Of a DNA stretch of 64,000 bases, positions 1,063 through 53,927 are shown piece after piece. Under the pieces are notes generated by a model that was given only the letters and a program-made list of their open reading frames with translations, had not been told where the DNA came from and did no database searches. Every line of letters starts with the position of its first letter. The stretch's first letter is position 1. The translations under genes were made by a program, and so were the position numbers. The stretch is from the NCBI GenBank assembly GCA_032768795.1, contig CP136498.1, forward strand, positions 620,001 through 684,000, given 5' to 3'. Source of the DNA: Tremella fuciformis. Taxonomy: Eukaryota; Basidiomycota; Tremellomycetes; Tremellales; Tremellaceae.

Positions 1063-1074
1063 AGGGGGAGCTCC

Positions 1075-3122: not shown

Positions 3123-3333
3123 TCGGGATAGGAAGTATCTTAGAGAATTGACTCTGCACGAGAGTATTTTACAGTAAGACGTAGGTCTGAATGCCCCCTA
3201 TGCAATCATTGTCTTTGGATCTCAATCAAGTCCATTCATTGTAAATCAGGGTCGCTGACTGATAGTCACCATCATCAGAATATTTCGTCGAGCAAGTACT
3301 AGCAAGAGAAAGGTTTGACTCGTGGCAGGGTCT

Positions 3334-3456
3334 TGTTGAAGGTTAGCCGCCACTGCGGGGTTATAGGAATTACCGTAGAAAGACGAAACTACATATAGCC
3401 ACCACTCATAGAGACAGTACGATGAATTCTCTCTTCAGCTCGTCCGCGATTCAACA
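3334..3456 (+). repeat. copia-1 5' LTR
   Basis: 123 bp, TGTTGAAGGTTAGCC ... GCGATTCAACA, preceded by GGTCT. A core with GCCGCCAC and AATTACCG is shared with the copia-2 LTR, so the two families are related. Confidence 0.93.
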
Positions 3457-3459
3457 GAT

Positions 3460-6400: not shown

Positions 6401-8720
6401 AAGCATGGAGGACGTACATCCTTTTGGGTGCGAGGCATGGGTAAGGATCCCAGAGGCCAACAGAGAGAAAGGGGATATGACACAGGCAAGAGCGGAGAAG
6501 GGACGACTGGTGGGATTGCCAGCGGGAACAAGTGGATGGGCAATATGGCTTCCACTCACGCAGAAGGTGATCTTCAGCCGGGACGTCACTTTCAGGACAA
6601 CAAGTCAAGTCAACGTCAATCCACCTGCAAGAGAGGAGGTAACCAAGCAAGTTGAGCAAGTGCCGGTACCGATAGAATCTTTGGACGATCAGCCAAGCTC
6701 AGGGGAGCAAGTCACAGAGGAGGTGGAAGAGAGGGCAGAGCCCGAGGCGGTAGCAGAGGAAGGGGGAGCCGGGCAAGAGGAAGCTCAGGCAGACCAACCT
6801 GCACCGGTACCTGCGGAGCCAGTACCATTCCAACCTCGACGCAGTGAAAGAGTCCGGGCGCCACGAGTAATGATTGCCGATGGCGAGGTCAACATTGCAA
6901 GCAATGACGAGATATTTGGCTGGATGCTGTCAGCAACAGCAGCATTCGACGATGACCCAAAGACGTATGAGCAGGCCATGGCGTCACCACTCAAGAAACA
7001 ATGGGAAGAGGCAGTGAACGCAGAGCTGCGCGTGATTGAGAAAGCTGGGACATGGGAAGAAGCGGTGTTGCCCAAGGACAGAAGGATAGTAGGGTGCAAG
7101 TGGGTATTCAAGACAAAGCGAGATCAGGACGGAGCAATCATCAAGCACAAGGCTCGGATTGTTGCCAAAGGATACTCGCAGGTCCCCGGACAAGACTTCG
7201 AGGAGACCTACTCACCAGTTGCACGCCTGACATCACTTCGAATATTCTTCACCATTGTGGCGGCAGATGGCCTAGCAACAGGTCAGGTCGATGTCATTTC
7301 AGCATTTCTCAACGGAGAACTCACGATACCAATCTACATGGAGATACCCCTTGGCTATCAAGCGACCAACAGGAAGGCAAACTGCGTGAAGCTGCTCAAG
7401 GCCCTTTACGGATTGAAGCAAGCAGGTCGAACCTGGTGGGAGGCTTTGGATAAGCAACTGGCAAAGCTCGGGTTTGAGCGGTGTGCACAGGACTGGGGAG
7501 TGTACGTGAGAAAAGGAAGCAAGACGGCGTACCTGGTGGTGTACGTGGACGACATGCTGGTAGCAGCAAAGGACAAGGCGACGGTTGATGAGATCAAGAG
7601 GGAATTAGCAAGGCGGTGGGAGATGACGGATGCCGGGGAGGTGACGTTCATGCTCGGACTGAAGGTCAGCCGGGACACGGAGGAGCGCACCATCCACCTC
7701 AGTCAAACGGCTTACATCGACACCATCCTTGACCGATTCAATATGACAACCGCCAAGCCTGTCACTACCCCATGGGTAGCGGGTGTCCACCTCCAACCAG
7801 ACGGAGAGCCGTGTCACGAGGGCGTGGCAAGATACCAGCAACTTGTGGGGAGCTTGATGTGGGCAGCAATGGCGACGCGACCGGACATAACCTTCACGGT
7901 CAGCGCACTGGCAAGACATTGCTCAGCTCCGACACAAGAGCACTGGGAGATGGGGAAAAGGGCGTTGAAGTACTTGAAGGGTACACGCACCTTGGGATTG
8001 AAGCTTGGCGGCAAGAGGAGAACGCCCGTGCTGGAAGCATGGAGCGATGCCGACCATGCTGGGGACTTGTCCGACAGAAAGTCAACGAGTGGCTTCATTG
8101 TCAAGTTCCGAGGATCTACTGTCAGCTGGGCAACGCAAAAGCAGAAGAGTCGAGCGCTATCAACAGCCGAAGCCGAGTATTACGCCCTCACGGAGACCTG
8201 GAAGGATGTGGAGTGGGTGAAGAAGGCGTTGATGGAGTACGGAGTGGAGAGCACGGACAGGGTGATGATATGGTGCGACAACCAGTCGGCCATAGCCCTG
8301 GTAGAGAATCCGGCTCACCATCGTTCAACCAAGCACATCGACATTTACTGGCATCAGATCCGAGACGTCAAGAAGAGCGGCAGATATGATCTGGAATACG
8401 TCAGAACAGATGATCAACTGGCCGACATCTTCACAAAGGGTTTGGCGGGACCGGCGCATCAGCGACACCGAGAGGGATTGGGAGTAGTGGATGGCGGAGC
8501 GAGAGACTCACGCATGATCCATACTCCGGACGATGGCAGGAAACATCGAGTCGAGAGATCCCCGATTGCGTCAAGCGTGTACTTTGTCGCTAAGCGGGAA
8601 TCTGTTGAAGACTCTGAAACCGCCGCGTTCGCCCCGGGTGCTGACCCGCACGCAACCAAGGTCCCGACCGATAGGATCCCGCCTCTGAAAGACCATTGCA
8701 GGCCGGCGGGTGAGGCCTAG
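3460..8720 (+). pseudogene. copia-1 gag-pol polyprotein, interrupted in gag by a solo LTR
   Basis: The N-terminal gag runs from Met 3460 (or Met 3511) to about 3868, where an LTR enters. The frame resumes at about 4573 and runs open to the stop at 8718-8720. Leaving out the LTR and one CTGCA duplication keeps the frame, so the break is recent. Counting residues from 4587: CCHC knuckle CFTCGKQGHKAEDC (~171), protease DSGATHH (~240), pre-integrase LGHLG ... CESCQ (~385-430), integrase HSDVAG (~448), RTDGGGEY (~512) and GVAERLNRTVKE (~548), reverse transcriptase with YVDDM (~985), and RNase H with DADHAGD (~1152) and CDNQSAIAL (~1229). This is the Ty1/copia order (INT before RT). About 90 residues of unrecognised tail follow RNase H. 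Apart from the insertion the frame has no stops. Confidence 0.93.
3869..4567. mobile_element. solo LTR (699 bp) inserted in copia-1 gag
   Basis: The ends are TGTTACGG ... TCATGACA, flanked by a perfect 5-bp duplication CTGCA (3864-3868 and 4568-4572). The right part holds repeated CATGGAAGG/GTGGAAGG units (about 4445-4535). GGGTGGCAAA-type boxes occur at 4128 and, inverted, at about 4219. No coding capacity; a solo LTR left by LTR-LTR recombination fits best. Confidence 0.88.
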
Positions 8721-8952
8721 GACACTGCTCCTCACCCAGGGGAACCGGGAGTTCACTGGACTCACCCCGGGATCATTGGACGGTAGAGAGGAGAAAGAGA
8801 GAGCGGCGGCGACGAGTCGAGCGGGCGTGTTGACACCAGTCAGGGACTGGAGTTATGAGGGATTATAGGATGGGTGGCAAATGTGGCACAGTGAGCAAGG
8901 CTACTCCGACTGTGCACGCATGCTTGGATGAGCAGTGACGTCTAAAGGGGAG

Positions 8953-9075
8953 TGTTGAAGGTTAGCCGCCACTGCGGGGTTATAGGAATTACCGTAGAAA
9001 GACGAAACTACATATAGCCACCACTCATAGAGACAGTATGATGAATTCTCTCTTCAGCTCGTCCGCGATTCAACA
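8953..9075 (+). repeat. copia-1 3' LTR
   Basis: 123 bp, followed by the target duplication GGTCT and preceded by the polypurine tract TCTAAAGGGGAG. A GGGTGGCAAAT box lies just upstream (8873-8883) in the 3' untranslated part. Confidence 0.93.
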
Positions 9076-9080
9076 GGTCT

Positions 9081-9351
9081 GACAGATTGCTTATTCAACA
9101 AATCCATCTAGGGTGGCAAATGCTGAATAAGCAGCACGCTCATACAGATTTGCCTTTGTAGATATAAAGCCCCCTCGTCAGACCTCTTTCTCTCTTTGTC
9201 AATGAATTATCATAAGTTACTCTTCACATCCTTCGTCCAGGTGACTTGCGCCTTTGCGCACTTACGTCCAAAGTCATCATTGTCCAGTTCACCTCTATCT
9301 TCCTCATTGCTTTAGTCATCGTTGTCCACTGGGTTTAGGTCCTTAGTCATC
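9081..9351. other. non-coding remnant between copia-1 and the solo gypsy-A LTR
   Basis: No gene seen. An imperfect hairpin GCTTATTCA ... TGAATAAGC encloses a GGGTGGCAAA box (9111-9120), and a GATATAAAG box at about 9158 looks like an LTR promoter. It is continuous with 3123-3333 once copia-1 is removed, so both are probably pieces of one older LTR element. Confidence 0.45.
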
Positions 9352-9932
9352 TGTCGTACTTGTCGTGGACGGGAGGTTGGAGGTCGGACGGACTGGAGCT
9401 AAAGCTAGGCAGGACTTGACTGGAAGCGCACTACTGTGAGTGGCAAACTGGACTGGAACTGGAATGACTAGTCTCTGGCTTGTCTGCTGGCTTGCCTCTC
9501 TGTGTAACAGAATGATGGCGCAGGGTTGCACTGGACGTGGTCTGGAGGACTGGGGAACTGGGACTAGGAAGAGAGACAAGGGAATGACTTTTGATCCATA
9601 ACTGGGGAAAAGGTCTTCAGCGGCAAACAGGCCTGCTTATATCCCTTTCACCAGATTGCTAAGAACTATGAATTTGCCACCCAGAGCGCTGGGCAGATTC
9701 TACGAATGGTGCTGAGCAGGTGCTACGCAGGTGCTGAGCAAGTGCTAAGCAGATTCTAAGCAAGCGCTAAGTAGGTTCTAAGTAAGTGCTACGCAGGTTC
9801 TAAGCAGATGCTGTGCAGGTGCTGAGCAACTTCTGTGCAGCTTCTACGACTGTTACCCTTAAGTTCCGGACTTTACTCTATTTCTTGGATCCTGATACTA
9901 ATACTATTTCTCCTAAGTGTTGATTCATGACA
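9352..9932 (-). mobile_element. solo LTR of gypsy-A (581 bp)
   Basis: On the minus strand it begins TGTCATGAATCAACAC and ends GTACGACA, matching 1075-1652 including the 12-bp array. It is flanked by a perfect 5-bp duplication TCATC (9347-9351 and 9933-9937). No internal region is present, so the element was excised by LTR-LTR recombination. Confidence 0.93.
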
Positions 9933-25670: not shown

Positions 25671-26057
25671 ATGCCCCCTAGGGCTCAGACCCCCCATCAA
25701 GCCGTGGCCCTATCTTCGGTCGACAGCTCTCGCGCTCTGAGATCCACCGCAACGCCAGATTCAACTTTCATGCAGCTCCCGACCGTGACTGCCACCGCCC
25801 AACAACCCAAGAGGAAAAGAGAGGCCACCAAGTCAGAGGTCGACATGGCCGATGAAGGAGCGGACATTCCTCTGCTGGAAGAGCACCTACCTTTGACCCT
25901 CGGGACCGGGAAGAAGATGGGCAATAAGCGACAGAAGGCTGGTACCGCCGGGCAGAGGGAGGAGGGTTGGGCCCTCACCGGTACCGCTCCACAAGTTGAG
26001 GGGGTTTTGGCCGCGGGAGATGAGGAGAACAAAGAAGGAGTAGGACAACAGCGTAGG
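25671..26057 (+). pseudogene. host gene 5' end truncated by gypsy-B LTR
   Basis: Met 25671 (MPPRAQTPHQAVALSSVD) follows a pyrimidine-rich leader typical of fungal promoters. The frame stays open to the LTR edge at 26057, about 129 codons, with a basic KRKREATK patch and later GNKRQKAG that could be nuclear localisation signals. The next 14 codons come from the LTR. No domain is recognised. The abrupt meeting with TGTCACGACGG suggests gypsy-B landed in this gene. Confidence 0.45.
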
Positions 26058-26492
26058 TGTCACGACGGCCACGCCCTCGACGACCTACGCACGTGACCGA
26101 CACCTCTCACGTGGCCGACACGTGACCTACCTCGGGCTGGAGAACCTCGACGAGGGAGTAGACGTTGAATGAACACGCGACGACGGGAAGCAGGCGCAGA
26201 GTCATATAGGATGCCCAGGGCGCCCGTCGTAGTTCTTCAGCACTCTCTGATTGAGTCTCATGGATCACCATTGACGATCTCACTCTCTCCGTGGCACGCA
26301 GCGTGGCTGAGTCGCACTCACGCTGTATCCTCGACGACCTTGTTACCTCGACGACCTTGCAACCTCGACGAGGATCCAACCTCGACGAGGATTCTACCTC
26401 GACATCCTCGTTTCTACCCCTTTATCCTTTATTCTTGACTCTGATATTGTGCGAGAGGGCCTCTGCCAACGGGAGAGCGCAGCATCGTGACA
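26058..26492 (+). repeat. gypsy-B 5' LTR (435 bp)
   Basis: TGTCACGA ... TCGTGACA, 8-bp inverted ends. The next bases GTATCAGAGAGTG look like a primer-binding site. The LTR contains four to five CCTCGACGA(CC/GG) units (about 26325-26412). The 3' LTR of this element is not found in the window. Confidence 0.85.
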
Positions 26493-26654
26493 GTATCAGA
26501 GAGTGCTACTACCTCTTCGCACAACCACGCATACCCGGGGCATATGCCCACCGAGACTCGACGTTCGACATCACTCAACCCGAACCACGAGCACCAAGCT
26601 TTACCACAGTCCCTTCGACTTCCTCCTGCTAGCCGGTCTAGCACACCCAACAAC

Positions 26655-27393
26655 ATGGCGGATCAGGCTTCCCTCGCTCAGATTCTGCAACAGCTCGTTG
26701 CCATCGAGGCTCGACGAGCCAACTCCCCCGCTCCCTCGACCAACGCATCATCGAGCGAACCGAAGGCCAATCCGCCCGACACTTTCGATGGCTCAAAGCC
26801 GGAGAAACTCGAAGGATTCCTCATGCAATGTAACATCGTCTTTCGGCTACAGCCTTCGAAGTTCACAGAGGAGTCCAAGGTCATTTACGCCATCTCCTTT
26901 CTCAGAGGATTCGTTCAGGACGCTATCCAGCCTCTCGCGTCGGGAGATGAGCTCGACGAGAAGATCAGTAGCTTCCAGAGGCTGTCGAAATACTTGAGAG
27001 ACAACTTTGGAGACCCCGACATCAAGGGGACCGCTCAGAGGCGATACTTCGACTTGAAGCAGACCGGATCAGCGGCAGAGTACTTCGCGAAGCTTAGGGA
27101 GTACTTGGCGGTCTTGGGATGGGAAGCCAACGAGCAAGCTAGAGCTAGGGCGCTCGAGGGCCTCTCAGACAATCTTCGAGACGAGGTTGCTCGGACCACA
27201 GTGGAGCTGGAGACCTTCGGAGAGCTTCAGTCCTATGTCATCAAGTTGGACAACAGGCTCAGAGCAAGGGAGGCCGAGAAGAAGGCCGAGGTCAAGCGGT
27301 ACAAAGAAGCTCGACGACGACCAGTCCCGACTACCCAGCAGCAAGTTGCTCTCCCTGCCTCGTCAACCTACCGCGCCCTGCTGACGCTTGCAG
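26655..27393 (+). pseudogene. gypsy-B gag, 3'-truncated
   Basis: Met 26655 (MADQASLAQILQQLVAIEAR) begins a Ty3/gypsy capsid frame. A retrotransposon-gag domain follows: PDTFDGSKPEKLEGFLMQC, SKVIYAISFLRG, LSKYLRDNFGDPDIKGTA, SAAEYFAKLREYLAVLGW and a coiled C-terminal part (LDNRLRAREAEKKAE). The zinc knuckle, protease and pol are all missing. After TTQQQ (27344) the sequence changes character and ends in CTGAC ... TTGCAG, a splice acceptor belonging to the DDE transposase fragment. The element therefore lost its 3' part by deletion or recombination. Confidence 0.8.
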
Positions 27394-27409
27394 GTCAAAG
27401 AGTTGTATG

Positions 27410-28181
27410 TGTCAGACCTGTACCCGGTGACCTGTTTTAGATCCAACTAAAGCTCACCTAAATCAACCTATCGATTCAAGCTGCTAACTATCAACGACTA
27501 TTCGTAACAGATAGTAACGAACAAGAGTAGAGTGGAACCAAGCTGGGTGAGGAGCGATCAAGACTCACTTCACTTATCTATCTCTCGTCACTGGTACGGT
27601 CGATTCTCTAAGTAGACGTTCTATCTAGAGGACTAGTTAACTAGATCGCTGAGGAACTTCCTCTGCGATCTTCTTTCTTAAGTATCTGCTGACTCTCGCC
27701 CGCTCTCTTTCTGATCCTTCTAGCATCGTCCTTCGTGGATCATTCCATCGTGCTCCTAGTCGCTTCTACTCGTCCCCAATACTCTCTAGTATTCTCTCGT
27801 CGTCTCTCTCCTCTTCCATCGTCTTCTCTCCGCGCTGGCTTGCATCTAATCTCCTTGCGTGCCCGTCGTCGTCCTTATCGTCCTCGGTCTCCGTCCCGTG
27901 GCCCTGACTGTGAGATAACTCTATCCTCCGTTATCGTGGACCTGACTCTTGTCCTTGCGTGCGTTCCTATCTCAACTCGGCCGATGGAAGACTGAGACGT
28001 ATCCTTCTATCGTTCTCCAGGTTGTTCCAGCGCTTTCAAGAGCAAGTCGTAGTTATTCGTGACTAATAGTGACGGTTCTACCGTACTCACGTTCTTCGGT
28101 TCGTAGCATCCTTTGGATGTTTCCGTCGGAAATTACCTCGTGGTAGTCTCGTGGTCAGGATGCCGTGTCGGTTTCCTGACA
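27410..28181 (-). repeat. gypsy-C 3' LTR (772 bp)
   Basis: Same length as the 5' LTR and identical where compared, including a shared 261-bp open frame that is not a gene. It contains TAACTAGATCGCT (27638-27650) and two copies of the TATTCGT/CTAATAG-type motif. Confidence 0.95.
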
Positions 28182-28195
28182 CTCCTCCCTCCTTT
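28182..28195 (-). other. gypsy-C polypurine tract
   Basis: Minus-strand AAAGGAGGGAGGAG directly upstream of the 3' LTR, the expected primer for plus-strand DNA synthesis. Confidence 0.85.
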
Positions 28196-28282
28196 ACATC
28201 ATGAGTCCCTTCATGATAAGATTAGTCGCGACTGATTTTTATTTGTTCCTGATACCGCCTATCGGTTGTCGCTTATCGTCCC

Positions 28283-28347
28283 GTTGCCTAGCAACGACTT
28301 TCTACATGTCGAGCATCTGCGAGTCGTCACCCCAGTTGCCTAGCAAC
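28283..28347 (+). promoter_or_regulatory. two RFX-type X-boxes upstream of the antisense gene
   Basis: GTTGCCTAGCAAC occurs at 28283-28295 and 28335-28347, 52 bp apart, 208 and 156 bp before the ATG at 28491. It matches the palindromic X-box bound by RFX/Crt1-family factors (GTNRCC-N(0-3)-RGYAAC). A third copy of the same 13-mer lies at 2219-2231. A CATAAGGG stretch near 28420 may serve as a TATA-like element. Site sequence is seen; binding is inferred from the family consensus. Confidence 0.6.
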
Positions 28348-28490
28348 CGCTCGCTCTTGCGACTGCCTCATACTCGTTTTTACTCGTAACGCCGTTTTGC
28401 CGATAGACGCCCGCAGGATACATAAGGGCGCGACTGCGCCCTCTCTTGTTCGTTCGTACATCTACTTTTCTTGACCTTTGGCGTACCCCT

Positions 28491-29850
28491 ATGGCCCGCT
28501 CTCGCGCATCCTCTCAACGACGTGTGAGTACTCGATCATGTTCGTGGCCATTACTGACCAAGAGCATAAGGGACGCTTCACGCGCAAGTCCACCTCGCCC
28601 GCTATGACGCCCCTGCCTGAGTTGGACGAGTTGGCTTCGTCAAACGAAACCCGACAAGATCTCACCCAGATGGATGCAGACCCGAGTGAGTTACTTTTAT
28701 TCGTTCGTATTTGTCACTAATAGCAGATGAGACACCTGCTCTCCCCACTCTCTCGGATGGAGAAGGCGTCACCCAGCCTCTCGCCCCCGCCGACACCGTC
28801 TCAGCTCCCGCTGCTCTCGAACGTGCCCCCACTGCCCCTCTGAACACCGCCCAAGACAAGACTTCGTCGCCCGCCCCGGAGGCTGACAACAATTCCGAAG
28901 GTGTGTTTGTTTTCTTGTATTCGTGTGTATTTGTTCCTAATAGTTTCCAGATGGATCCGAGACTACTGATCCCGAGGGTAACGTCGATGAAGACCCTAGT
29001 AAGTCGTTCCTATTCGATTTTATTCGCAACTAATAGCAGCCTTCCTTCTTTCCTCCGATCCCCCCGCCATCGAAGACGAGCTGGGCTCGTCGGAGACAGA
29101 GTCCGAACCCCCTCGCAAGAAGGGTTCCAAGGGGAAAGGGAAACAACGCGCCACTGTCGATACTCCTATTCGCGAGCTCGACGAGACCAAGCCCATTCCG
29201 TCCACTCCGGAATCAGTTGATCCCGACGAGATCCTGGCCATTGTGAGTAGTTTCTATTCGTTACGAATAGTAACTAATTGTAGGACTATGCCACGTTCAT
29301 GTCAGCCGCCCACGCGAGCCAGACCCCGTCTAAGTTTGTTCCGAAGGCAAGTGATCTCGTACTGTTTGGGGTTAATAGTAACGAATAGTCCCACACTGTC
29401 GATGTCCCCCCGCCCTACAAACGGCCGTCCGAACTTAAGCCCGGTGAGGCGCCGCACAAGCGTGCTGCTCGCGGCACGCGCCCACTTTCAAATGAGAAGT
29501 TCGCCGAACAGCAGAAATATCCGGTTTCGGTTCCACCGTGCCGAGGCTGTCTCAAGGCCAAGCTTGTTTGTCGAGTCAAGCCAGGCTCAATTCGCTGTGC
29601 AGTGTGCACTTCGGCATGTTCTTTCTCAGACCCCGCGCCTTATCTTCAGATTTTACGAGAGCATTTCCTTTCCCTCAAAGAAGGTTTGAAGGGACTCGAA
29701 CGCGCTCGATTGAATTCGTCTACCTCCGGGACAGTCACTATTCCTGCGGGCACTTTTGCGGACATACATTCGCGCATTTCCCAGATAGGTGAAGCCGAGG
29801 CAGCTGTCCGTACTTTGGAGTCGCTGAAGAGGAAGAATAGGGAACTGTAG
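28491..29850 (+). CDS. antisense passenger gene of gypsy-C: seven exons, Cys-rich Zn-cluster-like protein
   Basis: Exons: 28491-28523, 28565-28685, 28724 (or 28727)-28900, 28951-28998, 29040-29242, 29284-29346, 29389-29850 (stop 29848-29850). Introns are 38-50 nt; all start GT except the last (GC-AG, GCAAGT ... GAATAG), and every phase agrees, giving about 367 residues. The N-terminal two thirds is polar and acidic, with a basic patch PPRKKGSKGKGKQR. The last exon has CRGCLKAKLVC then CAVC and a further Cys (spacing C-x2-C-x6-C-x8-C-x2-C-x3-C, 29539-29619), reminiscent of fungal Zn2Cys6 clusters, followed by a helical tail (ISQIGEAEAAVRTLESLKRK). It runs opposite to gag-pol, so its introns are not removable from the genomic RNA. 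Function unknown; nuclear DNA or RNA binding is a guess. Confidence 0.8.
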
Positions 29851-29917
29851 CATATAGTCATTTATCGTTGTACCTATGAAGTCCTCAATCGCACTGGGTG
29901 CTATTTGGGACTAATAG

Positions 29918-32900
29918 TTACTGACGACTTCTTAGATTATGCCTGTGCCCGGCCTCTTGCCTGACTGACTCTTGAGTTCGTTGTCGTTTGTTAGGTCGTA
30001 TAGGCTCTTCTTTGTCGCTATTTGTCTTTATTCGTTTCGAATAGCTCCTATCTTTCTTGATTCCTCCGAATGTGTGACCAATTGGCTTGTCGGGGTGTCG
30101 CTCGTGGAATGTTCTTACAACCTCTGCCGCGTTTCTGACGTTCACCTCCGGCTCCCAGCCCACTTCATCATCCCCGTAGCCTCTCCACTCCACTAGGTAC
30201 TCGACCTTTCCATTCCTTGTTCTCCTTGAGTCCAGAATCCTCTCGACTTCAAATTCAGCATCAGGCTCCACTATAGTTGGTAGTCCTTGTGGTTGCCCTT
30301 TTGGTCGTATTCGCTTGTCTTCGACGCTAATAACGTCGACCGGATGCAGTCTGGACACATGAAAAACATTGTGGATTTTGAGCGTCGCTGGTAACTTTAA
30401 TTTCTTCGCGTGTGTTCCTATTGACTCTTCCACCTGGAAGGGTCCATCTCGCCTGTAGTCGAGTTTCTTGCTGGGTCGTTTCGTGTTAAGGCCCTCGAGG
30501 TCCAACATGACATAGTCCCCTTCCTTGATCTCGACTTGAGGCTGATGCTTCCTGTTGTAGTACTTCTCCATCTCCTTCCCTGCTCGCACATAGTTCTCCC
30601 TGCAGATTGAGTGCACCTCATTCATTGAGTTCGCACGTTGTCTTGCTTGCTGATTGTCGACTTTATTCGGTTCTAATATTTCCTGAACCCATCTAGGATG
30701 AAATCCGTGTAGCGCATAGAACGGGGTCATTCCTATCGTATCGTGATGGGCGTTGTTGATGGCAAACTGGGCGAATGCCAACAACGGTGCCCAGTTGTCC
30801 TGGTCGAAGTTGGTGAAGATCCTCATGAACCCCTCTACCTTCTGGTTATGTCGCTCGGTTTGACCATCAGTCTGCGGCCTTCTTGCCGTGCTGAGTGCCA
30901 ATCGAATGTCGAATTGCTCCGTTAGACTCCTCCAGAAGTCTGATACAAATTTACTTCCCCTGTCGGATACAATCGTGCTCGGCAGTCCGTATCTGGAGAA
31001 AACCGTATCGAATAGTAACGAACACATTTCGGGTGCGTTCAACTTTGTTACCGTGGGTATGAGTACCGTGTACTTTGTCAAGCGATCGACCACTACTAGT
31101 ATCGAATTGAAGTTGTTTGAGACTGGTAGCTCTTCGATGAAGTCCATCGTGATGTCCTCGAACGGTAGGCGTGGAACTTCCAAGGTTCGTAGCTGACCTC
31201 TTGGTCTCTGGTTGAAAGGCTTGGTGCGCAGACAGGCTGTGCAGCTCGACACGTACTTGGTCACGTGCGCCGTGAGCCCAGGCCAGTAATAGTCCCGTTG
31301 AACCGCCTTCATAGTCCTCTTAACTCCTGGATGTCCTGCCAACGGAGTATCGTGTCTTGAGTTTATGATCTTGAACCTCAAATCATCGTAGTCTGGGATA
31401 TAGATCTTGCCGTCGATACGGATGAACCCTTGTTGGTCTATTTCGACTCTAGTATCGCTTGATAGTCGCAATTCGTTCCTAATATCTTCGAGCGGCTTCT
31501 GTGCGGCAATCCCTTCGATGACTTGCCTACACTGCTCGTCCTTCATATACCCTTCCCTCACTCTGCTTCCATCGATGATCCAGTCATACGTGTTCGGGTC
31601 TGCTGTACTGGGTGATTCGGTCGTTGTAACCCCATACATTTCAAGGGGTTCTTGGTCTTCGACGATTGAAGCCGTCTTCTTTGATTCTTCTAAATTCGTC
31701 ACTATTTGGTCCAATTCGTTCTCAGCGTCGATTGTCTCGATCACCTGTCGAACCTTCGAGTCCGTTTGGTAGCTGTCGCCGCCTCTTGTCCCTGCCAGGT
31801 CAGGTCGTCGCGACAGGGCGTCTGGTACCACATTGCCCTTACCTGGGGTGTACACTATTCGTAGATCGAAGCGAGCCAGGATCTCTGCCCATCTGGCCTC
31901 CCTGTTTGATACCTGCTTCGGCATGGTATACCCTATCAAGGGCTGATGGTCGGTGACGAATATTATTGGCCACTTACTGCCCTCGAAATATGCTCGATGA
32001 TGCTGTAGGCAATAAATAATTGCGAATAATTCCTTCTCGGTGACAGTCCAGTTCTCCTCATTCGGTTTGAGTCTTGCTGAGCCATAATGGATTGCCGTTC
32101 GCTTCATGGTATTGCGATCCACATGGTAGATCACATACCCAATGGCGAAATCCGAGGCATCCGTGTGTACCTCTATCGGGAGCTCTGGATCGAAGTGCCC
32201 GAGAATAGGCGGTGATGACAGGGCACCTTTCAGCGACTGGAATGCCTTGTCAGCCTCTTCGTTCCAAATAAACCTTGCTTTCTTCGACATCAACTTGTTG
32301 AGAGGTCTCGCAATTCCCGAGAAGTTGGGTACAAATCTTCGGTAGTAACTGAAAAGACCCACCGCAGATCGTAGTTCCTTCTGTGTAGTCGGGATAGGGA
32401 AGTTCCTAATAGTTTCTGTTAGTCCTTCGTCGGTTGCTATCCCCTCTGCAGACACCCTGTGTCCTAAGAATGTAATGCTGTCTTTCTCGAACTCGCATTT
32501 TGCTGCCTTTAGTCGAAGCTCCCATTGTCGTAGTATATCGAAGACTGTCTTGGTAAGAGCTCGAAGTTCTTCAACCGTTTTCGCGTAAATGAGAATGTCG
32601 TCGATATATACGTAGACACCTTTCCCTATTAGTTCCGAAAATATATCGTTCATAAAATGTTGGAACGTTGCGGGAGCCCCTTTTAGGCCATCTCTCATCA
32701 CAGTGGACTCGAACATACCAAAGATAGTCCTGAACGCCGTCAGGTGTTCGTGTCCTTCAGCCATCCGCACCAGCTGATAGGCCCCTGCCAAATCCAGCTT
32801 CGTGTAGAACCGTGCGTCACGTAGATCTGCCAAGATCTGCGAGATTAATGGTAACGGATAGGCGCTATTTACTGTGGCTTCATTTAGCTTGCGATAGTCC

Positions 32901-34411
32901 ACGACTAGTCGTAAGCGTCCGTCTTTCTTCGGGACAAAGAACGCCGGCGATCCATAAGGTGATAACGAATGGTATATCTTTCCTTCCGCTTTCTCCTTTT
33001 CCAAGTATTCGTGTAAGGCGTTCTTTTCCTTCGGAGATAGTTGATAGAGAGGAGCAAGAGGCAGCTTACCTCCCTCCTTTAGTTCTATCCTGTGGTCGTA
33101 CGGTCGATGTGGCGGCAGCGCTGCCGACCCACTCGGTTCTTCAAACAAGTCTTCCCATCCTTGGTAGGCCTCTGGAATCTTGCTTTCCTTTGCCAAAGAC
33201 TGTTCTTTCTCGTTCAAGGTCGTGTACGAGTCGCTCTCACTGGCGGTTACTCCGTTCACCTCTACCCTTGTTTGGTCGTATTCTTTCTCCTCAAGTGCTA
33301 TTCGTCCCCATTTGTTCCAAATAGTCACATCTTGCAAATCTTCGATTGCCGTCCAGTCCTCCGGATCGGTTCCGGCTTCATCCTTGCCGTATTTGTAATC
33401 GTCGTAGATTCCACTAGAATCATCGCTTGACTCATCATCCATCGTAGAAGGGTCACTGAGTACGGGAGTCCCGTCTTCCGTCCCAGCCCTTTCAAGAGGA
33501 TCGTCCGCCATTGGCGCTTCTTCGTAGCTATTCGTTTCTGTTGCTCCTTCGCCATCGTTGCTTATTCCGGCCTCGCCAGAACCTTCCTGGGTTACTGAGA
33601 TCGGTCTCCATCGATTGCCGCTTTCCGCGATCTCGATGTTGTTGGGATAGGTCGTCCCGGACGCATAGGGCTTCCTGTAAGCCTTCCCTTTTCGTCTGTG
33701 TGGTTTTCTCACCACAGGAGTGCACGGGAATTCAGCCCATCCATGCCTCGCATCAATGGTTACTCCGTTCTCGGCCATCCACGGCCATCCCAATACAATG
33801 TCGGCCCCATTTAATTCTGTCACAAGCAATTTGACATCTATTGGGGGATATTCGGGATGAAGTTGGATGTTCGTGTCGATATAGGTGTGAACCAGACCAA
33901 ACGCGCTTGTACGTCCATCAAACATTACTACGTGTTTGGGTCGTTCGATCACGGTGTGGTTTAAGGTCTGGGCTATCTCTGACCTCCAGTCGACAAAGCA
34001 GGAGCTGGCTCCAGTGTCGAACAGGATGTTGGAGAGATATCCTTGTCGGCAATATAAGGAAGGGAATCCGCACTGGAGCTTTGCCCGGCCGCCAGTTAGG
34101 AGTACCCTCAATCGTAGATTCTCGGTCATGTTATCGTAGCATACAATTGATCTTTTTGGTAGTAGTTCGTCCCCAATAAATTCTGTTCCGTTATAATTCT
34201 CGAATGCCGCACCTAGAGTGAGAGGTTTGTTTGAGCCCCGACTCCCTCTCAATTCGACGGGGCGCTTACTTTTGACTGTTGCGAGCTCGTAGAAGGGGTC
34301 GTGGTACGCTGGTAGGTGTTCGTAGCATTGGAAGAGACCACCGTTCCTTGAGATCGCGTCGATTGCGAACAGTCCTTGGCCTGATGACCACTCTGTCCGC
34401 AGGAAAAGCAT
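29918..34411 (-). CDS. gypsy-C pol polyprotein (PR-RT-RH-INT-chromodomain)
   Basis: The frame is open from 34411 to a stop at 29918, about 1497 codons with no break. Positions from 34411: aspartic protease FDTGASSCF (~131), reverse transcriptase with YIDDILIYAK (~602) and YYRRFVPNFSGIARPLNKLM (thumb/connection), RNase H TDASDFAIGYVIY (~752), integrase zinc domain GHPGVKRTMKAV ... CTACLRTKP (~1025-1060), core MDFIEELP (~1090), VSDRGSKFVSDFW (~1148) and RPQTDGQTERHNQ, IHNVFHVSRLHPVD, and a chromodomain EFEVERILDSR ... YLVEWRGYG ... GWEPEVNV (~1389-1440). RT-RH-INT order marks Ty3/gypsy. Pol overlaps gag by about 160 nt in the -1 frame relative to gag, so expression probably needs a -1 shift; I see no canonical heptamer and the true first residue is unknown. 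Confidence 0.95.
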   Translation of the reverse strand: MLFLRTEWSSGQGLFAIDAISRNGGLFQCYEHLPAYHDPFYELATVKSKRPVELRGSRGSNKPLTLGAAFENYNGTEFIGDELLPKRSIVCYDNMTENLRLRVLLTGGRAKLQCGFPSLYCRQGYLSNILFDTGASSCFVDWRSEIAQTLNHTVIERPKHVVMFDGRTSAFGLVHTYIDTNIQLHPEYPPIDVKLLVTELNGADIVLGWPWMAENGVTIDARHGWAEFPCTPVVRKPHRRKGKAYRKPYASGTTYPNNIEIAESGNRWRPISVTQEGSGEAGISNDGEGATETNSYEEAPMADDPLERAGTEDGTPVLSDPSTMDDESSDDSSGIYDDYKYGKDEAGTDPEDWTAIEDLQDVTIWNKWGRIALEEKEYDQTRVEVNGVTASESDSYTTLNEKEQSLAKESKIPEAYQGWEDLFEEPSGSAALPPHRPYDHRIELKEGGKLPLAPLYQLSPKEKNALHEYLEKEKAEGKIYHSLSPYGSPAFFVPKKDGRLRLVVDYRKLNEATVNSAYPLPLISQILADLRDARFYTKLDLAGAYQLVRMAEGHEHLTAFRTIFGMFESTVMRDGLKGAPATFQHFMNDIFSELIGKGVYVYIDDILIYAKTVEELRALTKTVFDILRQWELRLKAAKCEFEKDSITFLGHRVSAEGIATDEGLTETIRNFPIPTTQKELRSAVGLFSYYRRFVPNFSGIARPLNKLMSKKARFIWNEEADKAFQSLKGALSSPPILGHFDPELPIEVHTDASDFAIGYVIYHVDRNTMKRTAIHYGSARLKPNEENWTVTEKELFAIIYCLQHHRAYFEGSKWPIIFVTDHQPLIGYTMPKQVSNREARWAEILARFDLRIVYTPGKGNVVPDALSRRPDLAGTRGGDSYQTDSKVRQVIETIDAENELDQIVTNLEESKKTASIVEDQEPLEMYGVTTTESPSTADPNTYDWIIDGSRVREGYMKDEQCRQVIEGIAAQKPLEDIRNELRLSSDTRVEIDQQGFIRIDGKIYIPDYDDLRFKIINSRHDTPLAGHPGVKRTMKAVQRDYYWPGLTAHVTKYVSSCTACLRTKPFNQRPRGQLRTLEVPRLPFEDITMDFIEELPVSNNFNSILVVVDRLTKYTVLIPTVTKLNAPEMCSLLFDTVFSRYGLPSTIVSDRGSKFVSDFWRSLTEQFDIRLALSTARRPQTDGQTERHNQKVEGFMRIFTNFDQDNWAPLLAFAQFAINNAHHDTIGMTPFYALHGFHPRWVQEILEPNKVDNQQARQRANSMNEVHSICRENYVRAGKEMEKYYNRKHQPQVEIKEGDYVMLDLEGLNTKRPSKKLDYRRDGPFQVEESIGTHAKKLKLPATLKIHNVFHVSRLHPVDVISVEDKRIRPKGQPQGLPTIVEPDAEFEVERILDSRRTRNGKVEYLVEWRGYGDDEVGWEPEVNVRNAAEVVRTFHERHPDKPIGHTFGGIKKDRSYSKRIKTNSDKEEPIRPNKRQRTQESVRQEAGHRHNLRSRQ

Positions 34412-35493
34412 AAGCCCGAATCCCTTCGTCTCTGCTTCTCGAACTCACTCAGGCGTGGTCGCATACCCAGGCCCGCAAATGGGTTGCCATTCCATGGGGT
34501 GGTCGCACGCGGTGGCTGAGTGCTCTTGACTGTGCTGGTTTCTGATGAGCGGTTAAAACTGGTAACGGTTGGTCGCACTCGCCCACTATTCGTCTCTATT
34601 TGTCGTTGTTCGTGCCTCTCTGGGCGTCCTTGTTCGTTCTTCTTCTCTTGTTCCCTCTCGAACATGCGTTCATCAAGTCTCGTGATCACCGTGACAAAGT
34701 CGTTCCAGGTCTTAGGGATTTCCTCCACCTTGGTAGCGATGGCGTCCTTGAGAGAGGGCTTCAAGCCTTCCCTAGCCTTGGCGATGAGGACCGAATCGGG
34801 CCAATCCAGCAATGATGATAACTGTTCGAACTCTGCAAAGTAATTCGTAACAGAAGACTTTTGTTGGATCGCTAATAGTTTCCGTTCGGCTGTATGAACT
34901 TCATCTGGATCTCCGTAGGTTCGTTTGATGTGTTTGATGAACAACCCGTAATCGTGAAGCCATCTAGGCTGATCGTCGACATCCTTAGCTAAGTGCGCCT
35001 CAATAGAGTGCAATGGCGCCTTCCTAAAGAACGATATCATATATCGGATCTTGGCATAGTCGGTGGCGTATCGGGCTGGTTGTAAGTCGAAGACCAGCTG
35101 ACACTGCGTCAGGAATCCGGTGAGCTTGTTCCTTTCTCCTTGATACTCGTCCGGAGAGTTGACCTTTGGTTCCTTGTTGTTCGATTTGTTCGTATTAGTC
35201 TCGAATTGGTTCACTCGATGCTCAGCCATCATCCTTTGATTCTGACTCAACAGCAATAGTGCCTCACCAATCTTATCGAGTTGGGTCCTGATCGAAGAGA
35301 GCCCATCATCCTGGGTAGACTCCATCGTGTCTTCTTGAGCGCCTGGCTCGTACACGCCTGGCGTACCTTGGGCTTCTTCTCCTTCCTCCGTGGTAGTCCC
35401 AGCGGGAGGAGTGATCAGCTCGTGCTCTGCGTCGGGATTGCCTGTCGCGCCTCGGTTCCTAAGGCCGTACCCGGTCGTAGGTGCAGAGGACAT
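34249..35493 (-). CDS. gypsy-C gag
   Basis: Met 35493 (MSSAPTTGYGLRNRGATGN), 414 codons. A disordered acidic N-terminus is followed by a capsid domain: NSPDEYQGERNKLTGFLTQC, AKIRYMISFFRKAPLHSIEA, LFIKHIKRTYGDPDEVHTAE, VTNYFAEFEQLSSLLDW and a helix LDERMFEREQEKKNEQ. A zinc knuckle CFSCGQSGHQAKDC lies near residue 365-378, then a Ser/Thr-rich tail to the stop. The ATG is about 50 nt inside the 5' LTR. Gag packages the RNA and forms the particle; this copy is intact. Confidence 0.93.
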   Translation of the reverse strand: MSSAPTTGYGLRNRGATGNPDAEHELITPPAGTTTEEGEEAQGTPGVYEPGAQEDTMESTQDDGLSSIRTQLDKIGEALLLLSQNQRMMAEHRVNQFETNTNKSNNKEPKVNSPDEYQGERNKLTGFLTQCQLVFDLQPARYATDYAKIRYMISFFRKAPLHSIEAHLAKDVDDQPRWLHDYGLFIKHIKRTYGDPDEVHTAERKLLAIQQKSSVTNYFAEFEQLSSLLDWPDSVLIAKAREGLKPSLKDAIATKVEEIPKTWNDFVTVITRLDERMFEREQEKKNEQGRPERHEQRQIETNSGRVRPTVTSFNRSSETSTVKSTQPPRATTPWNGNPFAGLGMRPRLSEFEKQRRRDSGLCFSCGQSGHQAKDCSQSTRSQGTVVSSNATNTYQRTTTPSTSSQQSKVSAPSN

Positions 35494-35527
35494 GTCGTCT
35501 TGATTTGGTGGCTTGTCGAAGGATATG

Positions 35528-35540
35528 AGCGATCTAGTTA
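35528..35540 (-). promoter_or_regulatory. gypsy-C primer-binding site, self-complementary to the LTR (putative self-priming)
   Basis: On the minus strand the 13-mer TAACTAGATCGCT starts 2 nt after the 5' LTR. Its exact complement AGCGATCTAGTTA occurs in the sense strand of the LTR (complement of 35771-35783), about 28 nt downstream of a TATA-like AGATACTTAA. If transcription starts there, the RNA 5' end can fold back on the PBS as in Tf1/sushi elements. I see no obvious tRNA-type PBS instead. Confidence 0.6.
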
Positions 35541-35542
35541 TC

Positions 35543-36314
35543 TGTCAGACCTGTACCCGGTGACCTGTTTTAGATCCAACTAAAGCTCACCTAAATCAAC
35601 CTATCGATTCAAGCTGCTAACTATCAACGACTATTCGTAACAGATAGTAACGAACAAGAGTAGAGTGGAACCAAGCTGGGTGAGGAGCGATCAAGACTCA
35701 CTTCACTTATCTATCTCTCGTCACTGGTACGGTCGATTCTCTAAGTAGACGTTCTATCTAGAGGACTAGTTAACTAGATCGCTGAGGAACTTCCTCTGCG
35801 ATCTTCTTTCTTAAGTATCTGCTGACTCTCGCCCGCTCTCTTTCTGATCCTTCTAGCATCGTCCTTCGTGGATCATTCCATCGTGCTCCTAGTCGCTTCT
35901 ACTCGTCCCCAATACTCTCTAGTATTCTCTCGTCGTCTCTCTCCTCTTCCATCGTCTTCTCTCCGCGCTGGCTTGCATCTAATCTCCTTGCGTGCCCGTC
36001 GTCGTCCTTATCGTCCTCGGTCTCCGTCCCGTGGCCCTGACTGTGAGATAACTCTATCCTCCGTTATCGTGGACCTGACTCTTGTCCTTGCGTGCGTTCC
36101 TATCTCAACTCGGCCGATGGAAGACTGAGACGTATCCTTCTATCGTTCTCCAGGTTGTTCCAGCGCTTTCAAGAGCAAGTCGTAGTTATTCGTGACTAAT
36201 AGTGACGGTTCTACCGTACTCACGTTCTTCGGTTCGTAGCATCCTTTGGATGTTTCCGTCGGAAATTACCTCGTGGTAGTCTCGTGGTCAGGATGCCGTG
36301 TCGGTTTCCTGACA
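35543..36314 (-). repeat. gypsy-C 5' LTR (772 bp), with promoter
   Basis: TGTCA ... TGACA ends; target duplication GTATG at 36315. The predicted minus-strand TATA-like element is at 35811-35820 and the predicted RNA start near 35783, giving a U3 of about 530 bp and R-U5 of about 240 bp. The start site is inferred from the self-priming match, not measured. Confidence 0.93.
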
Positions 36315-48483: not shown

Positions 48484-48600
48484 TGTTAGCGATGCCGCCA
48501 CCTCGAGTCATAGGGTAATTACCGAGAAACTCCGTCAGCTAGTAGGACCCATTACCATCTCGTAGGATATGTCGGATGCGACTCATATCTCACGTCAACA
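48484..48600 (+). repeat. copia-2 5' LTR (117 bp)
   Basis: TGTTAGCGATGCCGCC ... CACGTCAACA, preceded by AGTGT. Confidence 0.93.
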
Positions 48601-49338
48601 GATTAAAAGTCCCAGTACTCGATCTAGGCTCACGGCAATCCCTAGCGGTCACAAAGCAGAGCCTTGGTGCAGTGGTTAAGCTGCCAGGCTTGGATTCTTT
48701 CTCATTCTGTGGACGGCAGTACCTTTTGGCGCTGTTCGCTTCCCGTGTGGGATTAGCTGTCGAGTTGCGGTCCTCCAGTACTCTTGTGTGCGCTGGTTGT
48801 GACTTCTTGGCAGGGAGTCTAGAGTTCAAGTACCACGAGGTGCAGCATAGCGGGCATTTGGCAATACGACCGATCGTCAGACCCGTGCAAGTCACATTGC
48901 TCTCGGTAGTCGACACACCGAGACGGAACGCCTTGTTCGATCCGTCACGTCCTGGAGGGCGGTTTTGCCTTGGACGTGCGCGTTGTCCTGGAGGGCAGGT
49001 TTTTGCCTTGGACACGGAAGACGGAGAACTGGAAGGGCGCGCCTTGTTCTACCGGAAAGCCCACCACTCTTGGGCGGGAGAACTGTTAAGGGCGGGAGTA
49101 ACGCTCTGCACCGTGCTGGTGTAGGAGAAGCGGGCAGTCTAGCTTCGGCTCAGACGTAGACATTGTCTTCGGACGGTGTGGAAATCCAGATAATCACTGG
49201 TGGCGTGCACGGAGAGGCCCTTGGTGCACGTCTTGCGTACGATAAGTCCTCTCCGAGAGTTTTATCACTCTGTTTAAGGCTGTTGCTGAATTTTGCAACG
49301 GATAAGGCCTTGGTCGTCATCACCTATTCTACGGCACG
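48601..49338 (+). other. copia-2 leader, unusually long, no gene supported
   Basis: 738 bp between LTR and gag start. Short frames only. It includes TGGTGCAGTGG (48667-48677), which fits a pol III A-box, and a weak B-box-like AGTTCAAGTAC about 165 bp later. A GGAGGGC.GTTTTTGCCTTGGAC unit is duplicated near 48951-49015. Primer binding and packaging signals are expected here. Confidence 0.55.
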
Positions 49339-52300
49339 ATGAACGCCAATTTCACTTCAACCACCACTGCCGCCCAGGCAATCCCCTTCCTCTCGACACC
49401 CCGCGGCTACTTCAAATGGCGTTTTGCTGTCCGCCTTGACCTCACTACGGCGGGATGCATTGGCATCATTGAAGGTACAGACGTTGAGCCGTACAGGACG
49501 GGTGGAGCTGGAGGAGTGCCAGTGCGCACGGCGCGTGCTGGGTCAGTAGCACCTGAGGGAGACACGAGTCTCACAGGTGGTGTGCTGGGCACCGCAGAGC
49601 TCAAGCGGTGGGAGGAGTGGAGGAAGCGGGAATACTATGCGCAAGGTGTCATCCTACGCAGGTTAGACCCGGGGATTCAGATGGAGATCTCAGAGATGAA
49701 GTCGGCCAAGGAGATGTGGGATTGGCTGGAACGGGACATGAAGCGCGAGGACCCCGCATACAAGGCATCCACTGATGATGCTCTACGCGCTATCCGCCTT
49801 CCCGCCAACGCCACTGTCAAAGATCACGCCGATCATCTCAACAAATTCAACTCTCTCTTCTTCGAATCTCAACAAGCCGGTAACAAGTACGAGGACTCCG
49901 CCCGCGCTCTTATCTTCCTCAATACTCTTGTCAACAACCCACGTTGGGACATCCCTATCCAATTGCTCGAGTCATCACCCCTTTACGAGCAAAGCTGGTC
50001 GGAAGTCCGACAATTCTATCAAACCCAAGTATCACGGTGGGAGGCCAAAGGTCTACCGTGGAAGGAGGCTCAGCCTGCAGCTCAACTGAACGCTGCGGAG
50101 AAGGGCGAGCGGGTCTCCTTGGAGAAGGGTGCAAAGAAGGGTGGCTGGAAAGCCAAGAGTGCAGGAAAGGGCATGAAGCTGGTGTGCTGGACGTGCAACA
50201 AGGAAGGACATCTCAAGCGAGACTGTCCAGAAAAGACAGGCGTCCGAGGGAGCAGCAAGGCCACCAAAGGTAGAGGAGAGAAGCAGCAGGATGGCGAAGA
50301 AGACCGACTAGTCAACTTCTTTGCGGGCGCTACCTTCTCGGAACAGGCCCTTGCCTCGACCTCCTCAACGCCAGAATTCCTTGTCGATAGTGGATGCACG
50401 CACCATGTGTCCCCGTACAAGCATTTGTTCACCGACCTCAGACCTCTGAAAGAGTCTGTTGTATTCCACGTCCCTGGTGGTCACCAGTTTACGGCAACCA
50501 TGACAGGCGACATTGTCATCACCACGTCCTCCGGACACAAGATCAAGCTGCTCGATGTCTATTATCATCCTCAGACAACGAAGAACATGCTTTCAGCCTA
50601 TACCCTCATCGACAAAGGCTGGAGTGTCAAGCTTAAGGAGGAGACCGTGGAGGTGGGACCTATCAAGGTCAAGGGGACACGGCGAGGAAACTTGCTGTGG
50701 GTCAAGCTCGGTGCAATACGCCACACAGAGCTTGAGGATCCAGTGAAGCTGGATGTGAGGGAGATCAATGCTCTCACTGTCCGTGAAACCCCACTGGAGG
50801 AGGAGCACAAGCGTCTAGGACATATTGGACGGGAGAAGCTCCTGAAGCTGGCCGGTGATGGCCATCTACGGTATTCTAAGGAGGAGTTGGAGAAGGACAA
50901 GTTCAGGCTGGATGACTGCGATGCTTGTCAAGCTCGGAGAACAACTCGACCTCCAAAGAATGGTGAAAGCCCTCGAGGGCAGGCGGACTGCGAAGTCATA
51001 CATATCGACATTGCTGGTCCTATGGACCCCTCAAAAACAGGCTTTCGGTATTACCTCGGTATCATTGATGATCACTCAAAGATCAACAATGTGGTTCCCC
51101 TCGTCAACAAGCAGAACGTCTTCTTCCACGTCATCAACTTTGTCAATAGCATTGAACGGCAGACTGGTCACAAAGTCAAGTTCATCAGGACAGATGGTGG
51201 CGAGGAGTTCAAGAGCGACAAAGCTTTAGTATTCTATCATCAGACCGGCATCATTCACCAAATCTCGCCACGGTACACACCTGAACTCAACGGAGTGGCA
51301 GAAAGGTTCAACAGAACGGTGAAGGAGATGATAGGAGCGATGCTTTCCTCGGCAAATCTTGGACATGAGTATTGGGATTACGCAGCCAAGTACACCTCGG
51401 TGATGCTCATGAAGACGGCATGGGGAGGAGATGGCGTCAATGCTTGGACAAAATTCACTGGAAGAAGTCCGAACCTGGCGCACACTCTCATGTTTGGCGA
51501 GCTGGTCTTTGCCCAAATCCCAGCAGAGATCAGGAAGAAAGCAAGACTGGATACGGACAAAGGAGAACTGGCACAAGTGATGGGGGTGGAGATACAGCGG
51601 AGCGGCTGGTTGGTGAGGATGGAGGGAGATGGGCAGCTGCACATCAGTCGTGACGTCAAGAGCGCATCTGGACACCCTCTCACACCGGACAATACCATCG
51701 TTCCAATTGATACACCACAACAACCCCCGGCAGTCACGGCAGAAACAGTTCCTCCGGTGCCAGTTGCCATTGCACCAATATCCATGGCACATGTCCGACC
51801 AGTACAAGCAGCTGCAGACATTCCAAGTCAGGAAGAAGCTGCTCGGGAACCAGAGAGGAGAGAGGAAGTATCCGTGCAGGAGAAGGAGGGAGAGCAACAG
51901 CAGGTGGAAAGGGCCTTGGAGCAAGCGTTGCCGGTCAATGCTGCTCAGGAAACTACAACGCCCGACACTCTGCTGGACACCCTCCCTGTACCAACACCGC
52001 CTGAAGCTGTGCCACCACCCATGCCAGTGAGGCGCAGCAACCGTGTTGCAGAAAGGGCAACCTCTGTTCACGAGGCAAACCTGATGCAGGCATGGCACGG
52101 AGAGGATGCAAGGGGAGCATACCTGGCATCCGAGACAAGGCTAGAGGAGGACACATCCTCGGGAGAATCTGAGCCTCAAACAGCACGAGAGGCACTGATG
52201 GGCAAGGATCGGGATAGCTGGAAGGCAGCAATGCTGAGGGAGCTCGACAACATTGAGTCAAAAGGGACTTGGGTTGAGGTGATGCTCCCGCCTGGTCGGA

Positions 52301-53742: not shown

Positions 53743-53810
53743 AGGACTGGTGATAGCGAGCATGGCAGTTTGGGTAGCACCAGGAGACTCAAGAGCGGCG
53801 GCAGAGGGAG

Positions 53811-53927
53811 TGTTAGCGATGCCGCCACCTTGAGTCATAGGGTAATTACCGAGAAACTCCGTCAGCTAGTAGGAACCATTACCATCTCGTAGGATATGTC
53901 GGATGCGACTCATATCTCACGTCAACA
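53811..53927 (+). repeat. copia-2 3' LTR (117 bp)
   Basis: Preceded by GGCGGCAGAGGGAG, the likely polypurine tract, and followed by AGTGT. Confidence 0.93.

Follow-up and report, generated by a model that had tools for sequence, protein, structure and literature searches.

The closest described counterparts of the system considered here are the VANC proteins of Arabidopsis VANDAL (Mutator-like) DNA transposons, which act in anti-silencing and for which binding and demethylation were shown experimentally (passages of PMC5735166 and PMC10398659). In the available passages of PMC5735166, the VANDAL motif is short and family-specific, dense in its own family, rare in other elements and present also inside the introns of element genes; related VANC proteins use different motifs, and the motif can also occur in AT9TSD1, an element unrelated to them. 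In LTR retrotransposons, antisense open reading frames (ORFs) between pol and the 3' LTR are termed aORF-3R, examples being Grande gene23, RIRE2 and Retand (excerpts of PMC7264820 and PMC11963269). The functions of antisense genes in LTR retrotransposons are called unknown in the excerpt of PMC7264820, and HBZ of HTLV-1 is mentioned among antisense-encoded retroelement proteins in that of PMC11963269. Neither a spliced antisense Cys-knot gene nor a motif array spanning a whole LTR element was found among the matches listed in a search of the open-licence PMC literature (preprints lay outside its scope).

The locus described here lies in a 64,000-bp window of the Tremella fuciformis genome (assembly GCA_032768795.1, contig CP136498.1, positions 620,001 to 684,000 of the forward strand; coordinates below are window positions), where a gypsy-type element carries a spliced gene on the strand opposite gag-pol, between pol and the 3' LTR. 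Two further genes may be likened to it from their description only: brtn of Boty-like elements in Botrytis, reportedly described by Zhao et al. in 2011, is likewise an extra gene carried antisense by a fungal LTR element, and HBZ, a spliced bZIP factor, is a nuclear regulator encoded antisense in a retroelement, as the product of the window gene would be. Like the VANDAL elements, as far as the passages of PMC5735166 describe them, the window family has a short motif that is dense in its own family, rare elsewhere and present in introns. Unlike them, the carrier is an LTR retrotransposon and not a Mutator-like element, its gene is spliced and runs antisense, the encoded protein, whose binding is putative, contains a Cys knot, and the sites lie also in coding sequence, with preferred spacings of 9, 10 and 19 bp. 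The gene shares with aORF-3R genes, as presented in the excerpts, its position, orientation, presence in many copies and proposed regulatory role, and can be classed with them, being antisense between pol and the 3' LTR and intact in most copies. It contains introns, and the word "intron" is absent from the main texts of PMC7264820 and PMC11963269; the available passages of the two papers describe tandem repeats in Retand, but no motif array across the element. They give the domain of Retand as TRP28 (PF04195), which was not found in our Pfam scans of the antisense proteins.

The window element is a chromodomain Ty3/gypsy element located at 27410-36314 on the minus strand and flanked by a 5-bp target duplication (GTATG). 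The 3' LTR (left in the window, 27410-28181, 772 bp) and the 5' LTR (right in the window, 35543-36314) both have the form TGTCAG...CTGACA, and they show zero differences over the 771 bp compared, in agreement with the preliminary description of this DNA, which noted that they look identical. A polypurine tract (CTCCTCCCTCC on the plus strand), recognised by direct reading of the sequence, adjoins the 3' LTR at 28182-28192 and belongs to the minus strand, as do gag (34249-35493; Retrotrans_gag with a CCHC knuckle) and pol (29918-34411; reverse transcriptase [RT], RNase H, integrase and chromodomain), both matched in a Pfam scan. The order of the Pfam matches (RVT_1, RNase H, rve, Chromo) is that of a Ty3/gypsy chromovirus. 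In 13 copies of the element, seven LTR pairs are without difference, four have 1-3 differences and two have 8; perfect 5-bp target duplications flank 11 of the 13 copies checked. The family is young. The insertion of the window element interrupted the 5' part of a different gypsy-type family (26050-27409, plus strand), which is rich in TCGWCGAG and is referred to below as the interrupted family.

The antisense gene has an open spliced frame on the plus strand from the ATG at 28491 to the TAG at 29850 and encodes 365 amino acids in seven exons (28491-28523, 28571-28685, 28727-28900, 28951-28998, 29040-29242, 29284-29346 and 29389-29850), separated by introns of 47, 41, 50, 41, 41 and 42 nt; both the coordinates and the exon count given in the preliminary description are correct. 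The exact splicing is not unique, as 720 combinations of nearby donors and acceptors keep the frame open, the least certain choice being the acceptor of intron 1. A search of the 28.1-Mb genome with the gene segment gave 24 matching rows, of which 18 are full length; the other six represent four further split, partial or diverged copies and are outside the open-frame count. In 18 of 18 full-length copies, each of the six introns keeps its donor (GC for intron 6, otherwise GT) and its AG acceptor, and the reading frame is open in 16 of these copies, with one premature stop each in copies L022 and L024. In the diverged copy L028, exon 1 is not recognisable. One copy (L027:1697-2226) is split by an insert of approximately 530 bp, and the flanks of this insert overlap by 5 bp in the match.

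Divergence between copies indicates that the coding sequence is constrained: across comparisons dN/dS is 0.20-0.26 for exons 2-7 and 0.06-0.17 for the last exon. The values for exons 2-7 and exon 7, respectively, are 0.23 and 0.10 for the window copy against L028, 0.26 and 0.16 against L029, and 0.24 and 0.17 against L012; the lowest exon 7 value (0.06) is that of L029 against L028. Exons 2-6 are less constrained, with dN/dS of 0.33-0.44 in all six comparisons. In the aligned parts of the divergent copies L029 and L028, the indels in exons are of -6, -6 and +3 nt, and intron 6 has one of +1 nt; two other indels listed for L028, an exon 1 insertion of 59 nt and an intron 1 deletion of 1 nt, were set aside because this copy matches only from segment position 63. 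Introns 2-6 diverge less than synonymous sites (window against L028, 0.14 raw versus a dS of 0.37 in exons 2-6). Given the splice sites kept in 18 copies, the 16 open frames and dN/dS far below 1, this is a spliced antisense coding gene under purifying selection, which is strongest toward the C-terminal end. The preliminary description had asked whether other copies keep the exon frame (dN/dS below 1) and the intron positions, or instead show stops and broken splice sites at neutral rates; the former is what the copies show.

Exon 7 encodes a six-cysteine knot, CX2CX6CX8CX2CX3C (29539-29619, plus strand), identified by regular expression and cross-family alignment. It is followed at 29632-29847 by two long helices, a putative coiled-coil dimeriser, which AlphaFold2 predicts at exon 7 residues 82-109 and 120-152 with modest confidence (mean pLDDT of 64). 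The Zn2Cys6 transcription factors of fungi likewise have six cysteines in two groups and then a coiled coil, to which the predicted helices would correspond. The canonical Zn2Cys6 spacing (PF00172) is CX2CX6CX5-12CX2CX6-8C; the first four loops of the knot fit it, whereas the last loop has three residues in the window gene and up to five in related genes, not 6-8. No family was matched at the cut-off in a Pfam scan of the 365-aa protein, PF00172 being absent up to an E value of 1, and in the five proteins scanned with Pfam PF00172 was not matched up to an E value of 10. The earlier label "Zn-cluster-like" therefore holds for the look of the domain, and not for its assignment, as none of the Pfam models for Zn clusters matches and the final Cys loop falls short of the canonical Zn2Cys6 length. 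Among 6076 candidates picked by shared short words from a set of 5.8 billion proteins, zero homologues of the 365-aa protein were found at an E value of 10 or better. A PDB sequence search with the exon 7 alignment gave two matches, both weak and unrelated, and a fold search gave two (E values of 6.9 and 9.7), neither convincing.

A knot search of the same genome identified related genes in other gypsy families. In all five places read (L031/L032, L034, L035, L036 and L033), the gene is antisense to and 3' of a gypsy-type pol; Pfam detects a chromodomain in L031 and L034 and a gypsy-type RT in L034 and L036, and the L033 gene adjoins a pol approximately 45% identical to that of the window element. 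Six cysteines, one valine and one glycine of the knot are invariant in nine sequences, six of them from other families, and a profile-profile comparison matched the two antisense-protein families with an E value of 3e-7 over 34 columns. In the interrupted family, 24 of 26 gene places lie downstream of gag within 13 kb, all 24 on the opposite strand, and the distance from gag to gene is 4.9 kb in 21 of these 24. This pairing used 26 of 63 gene rows (the lower group, the other 37 being the L033 group and fragments) and 35 of 44 gag rows, with nine short rows left out. The interrupted gag family was also considered as that of L033 and ruled out: there are two gene groups, and this gag belongs with the 53-54% group. 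The protein alignment of the other families retrieved one database homologue, P0003 (longest contig, 3.9 kb), which by eye closely resembles the L033-family antisense protein and therefore represents no new lineage. Related antisense genes thus recur as components of several element families.

In a k-mer scan, TATTnGT was the most enriched pattern of its form in the window element, with 26 occurrences compared with 3.0 ± 1.7 in dinucleotide shuffles (maximum of 8 in 200 shuffles) and with an expectation of 1.05 obtained by scaling the count in the remaining window sequence. At the variable position C, T and A occur, but never G, which gives TATTHGT. Pol alone has nine TATTHGT sites versus 1.8 expected, a number reached in 0 of 500 synonymous-codon shuffles; the excess in gag is weak (3 versus 1.05, reached in 33 of 500 shuffles and in 15 of 300 in a second test), and no TATTHGT site falls in the spliced antisense-gene exons. 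Counted over one LTR and the internal region, 3 of the 26 strict half-sites lie in the LTR. When relaxed half-sites are considered (38 on the plus strand and 31 on the minus strand), 8 of 10 direct pairs on the plus strand within 40 bp are spaced at exactly 10 bp and 18 of 21 opposed pairs at 9 or 19 bp, compared with 0.17 direct and 0.28 opposed pairs expected (maxima of 2 and 3 in 5000 runs) under uniform site placement, a control that ignores clustering. Among close direct pairs on the minus strand, one of four is at 10 bp.

These spacings were combined into a composite of two direct half-sites 10 bp apart and one inverted half-site, scored out of 20; as it was written after inspection of the sites, its shuffle counts are flattering. 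A composite is present in every one of the six introns, where the best score was reached by 0 of 1000 interior shuffles each: intron 1 (28524-28570, acceptor ambiguous; 15/20), intron 2 (28686-28726; 20/20 at 28698), intron 3 (28901-28950; 20/20 at 28918), intron 4 (28999-29039; 18/20 at 29011), intron 5 (29243-29283; 18/20 at 29254, on the minus strand) and intron 6 (29347-29388, GC-AG; 16/20 at 29363), all introns being those of the plus-strand gene. The best score in the exons of this gene is at most 13/20. Composite matches are also found in the LTR at 27489-27523 (best 18/20, minus strand, at 27498) and 28044-28069 (18/20, plus strand), with the same sequences in the right LTR. Further matches, all on the plus strand, lie between the stop codons of the antisense gene and pol at 29892-29917 (15/20), in pol at 30009-30044 (20/20 at 30019), 31693-31718 (16/20) and 33299-33324 (19/20), and in gag at 34587-34612 (16/20) and 35183-35208 (17/20). 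In the 28.1-Mb genome, the composite with at most one mismatch has 88 matches and the reversed pattern 0; 87 of the 88 fall inside recognised pol or gene segments belonging to the window element's family, or no more than 400 bp away from them.

Half-sites are retained in the divergent copies slightly above background (16 of 24 in L028 versus 57%; 18 of 21 in L029 versus 74%), and intronic sites are no better kept than the rest of the intron (L028, 14 of 84 versus 12 of 88). Site conservation as proof of selection on the motif sites was thus too weak to be used. A separate LTR piece at 55296-55875 is 84% identical to the window LTR overall, yet the composite of 28044-28069 is 25/26 identical in it (at 55737).

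The examined stretches of the other families lack TATTHGT and instead have an excess of TCGNCGA. This motif occurs 42 times in L034 pol (10.2 expected, reached in 0 of 300 shuffles), 10 times in L034 gag (1.9; 0 of 300), 28 times in L035 pol (6.9; 0 of 300), 14 times in the gypsy pol part of L032 (7.1; 6 of 300) and 6 times in the gag of the interrupted family (2.0; 18 of 300); because the L035 stretch overlaps a copy of the interrupted gag family, the family numbers are those of L034 and the L035 pol ORF only. At its central position the motif tends towards A/T in L033 and the interrupted family, whereas L034 and the L032 gypsy element show a tendency towards C/G. Genome-wide, CTCGWCGAGG has 2283 matches on the forward strand versus 172 for the reversed pattern, and is visibly clustered among the matches listed (the first 100). 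The antisense ORFs of L033, L034 and L036 are without motif enrichment. The two Pfam-confirmed copia elements of the window (3327-9081 and 48484-53927) have no excess of TATTHGT or TCGNCGA, and no knot match was found in them by pattern search. At L028, TCGNCGA occurs at 12 places, five of them at 7985-8291, past the matched part of that copy.

Two exceptions were observed. L036 has the Cys-knot gene and no excess of TCGNCGA (6 in pol versus 4.2 expected, reached in 109 of 300 shuffles; 0 in gag versus 1.8). In pol, L036 and L034 share 90% identity, and L036 keeps 3 of 12 aligned L034 sites against a background of 52%; most of the lost sites differ at CpG (TCGGCAA, TTGCCGA or similar), so that L036 may be a CpG-decayed copy. 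The second exception is a copia element nested in a gypsy pol (L032:5003-9801), which has 30 TCGNCGA sites versus 15.7 expected (2 of 300) and a TCGWCGAG array like that of the interrupted family, and in which no antisense Cys-knot gene was detected. It may be a rider on the protein of another family, as the case of AT9TSD1 and VANC6 suggests in the available passages, or alternatively it may be a sign of a looser link between protein and motif than we propose.

We consider it probable that the antisense protein binds DNA and recognises its own element through a dedicated operator array, in a manner comparable to the anti-silencing system of VANC and VANDAL. It would be a small dimeric DNA binder, with a six-cysteine knot that may bind metal followed by a coiled coil for dimerisation, and its putative binding site would be TATTHGT, typically as a direct pair of half-sites spaced by 10 bp together with an inverted one. 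The element would have accumulated such sites in both LTRs, the six introns, pol and, less clearly, gag. The antisense mRNA would be transcribed and spliced, and the genomic RNA would contain only the reverse complement of the introns, so that these would survive retrotransposition; this explanation had been offered in the preliminary description and, judged from the sequence, fits the anatomy of the element. The introns may in turn give room for sites that are missing from the exons. The dimer is expected to bind paired half-sites along the same face of the helix, thereby coating its own family, and since related families combine related proteins with another motif (TCGNCGA), each lineage would be specific for its own class of DNA. 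The most likely purpose would be to keep the chromatin of the element expressible, with autoregulation through the LTR a close second; sites across the element body would be better explained by anti-silencing than by promoter control. The firm parts of this account are the gene and the selection on it, its recurrence, and the array with its geometry and family specificity; that the protein binds the array is, we infer, the best pairing of the two. The term "passenger gene", used when the locus was first described, is too weak in view of the related genes in several families and the putative binding-site array.

The host genome has matches over the cut-off to Piwi and Pre-SET (Argonaute-type and H3K9-methyltransferase-type genes), and the DNA-methylase match is one short fragment; with these genes, silencing would be present to counter. 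CpG transitions are raised approximately twofold, and DNA methylation in this host is only hinted at. A broader reading, which we hold to be slightly less likely than not, is that the gypsy families of this genome are distinct self-recognition systems, each pairing an antisense-encoded Cys-knot protein that binds DNA with a corresponding operator dialect distributed along the element body. Each family would unsilence itself and not its neighbours, the window element would keep its dialect in antisense-only introns, and some protein-less copia elements would borrow a dialect.

Several other explanations were weighed against a self-recognising anti-silencing protein. The protein might bind LTR operators and repress or activate its own promoter for copy-number control, as antisense retroviral proteins do, the body sites being secondary. 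The LTR composites at 27489-27523 and 28044-28069 are as this model predicts, the latter being the one preserved in the diverged LTR piece at 55.3-55.9 kb, but only 3 of 26 strict half-sites are in the LTR, and the enrichment of pol under a codon-preserving control is unneeded for promoter control; we regard autoregulation as the main role as rather unlikely. It is less likely still that a host factor binds the arrays, or that they function at the RNA level (packaging or export), while the antisense protein has a separate task, for example in nuclear import or the choice of targets. The protein-motif link is itself putative, and the L032 copia (an array without a detected gene) and L036 (a gene without an excess) would suit such an uncoupling. 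However, the motif varies by family inside one host, the copia elements at 3327-9081 and 48484-53927, without a knot match, are also without motif excess, and the 10-bp phasing and opposed pairs suit a dimer on double-stranded DNA.

An origin of the array as a side effect of base composition, codon usage or local duplication is very improbable in view of the dinucleotide, block and codon shuffles, the spacing control and the absence of matches to the reversed pattern, although introns 2-4 are alike by eye, and some of their sites may thus share an origin by duplication. We give even less credence to a captured host gene that rides passively and is heading for decay: the lack of homologues of the 365-aa protein in a large protein set leaves room for such an origin, but dN/dS is 0.20-0.26 (0.06-0.10 for exon 7 in the L028 comparisons), 16 of 18 copies are open, and related genes occupy the same place and orientation in several families. 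The preferred reading, a self-recognising protein with its own array, pairs an antisense protein with a predicted binding site of defined spacing and is thus specific and cheap to test. If binding is true, retrotransposons would have evolved sequence-specific self-recognition like that of the Arabidopsis VANDALs in another element class and seemingly another kingdom, and this would explain both the survival of an intron-bearing gene in a retroelement and why its introns matter.

Some minor observations concern individual elements. Copy L010 of the window element's family has a partial duplication in pol (a match to 3923-4494 directly after 1-4088). Copy L019 is 99.2% identical to the window element in pol, but its antisense gene is only 97.8% identical, a pattern suggestive of recombination between subfamilies. 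The copia element at 3327-9081 is flanked by inverted repeats (1075-1598 and 9408-9932) that are 96-97% complementary and approximately 8 kb apart.
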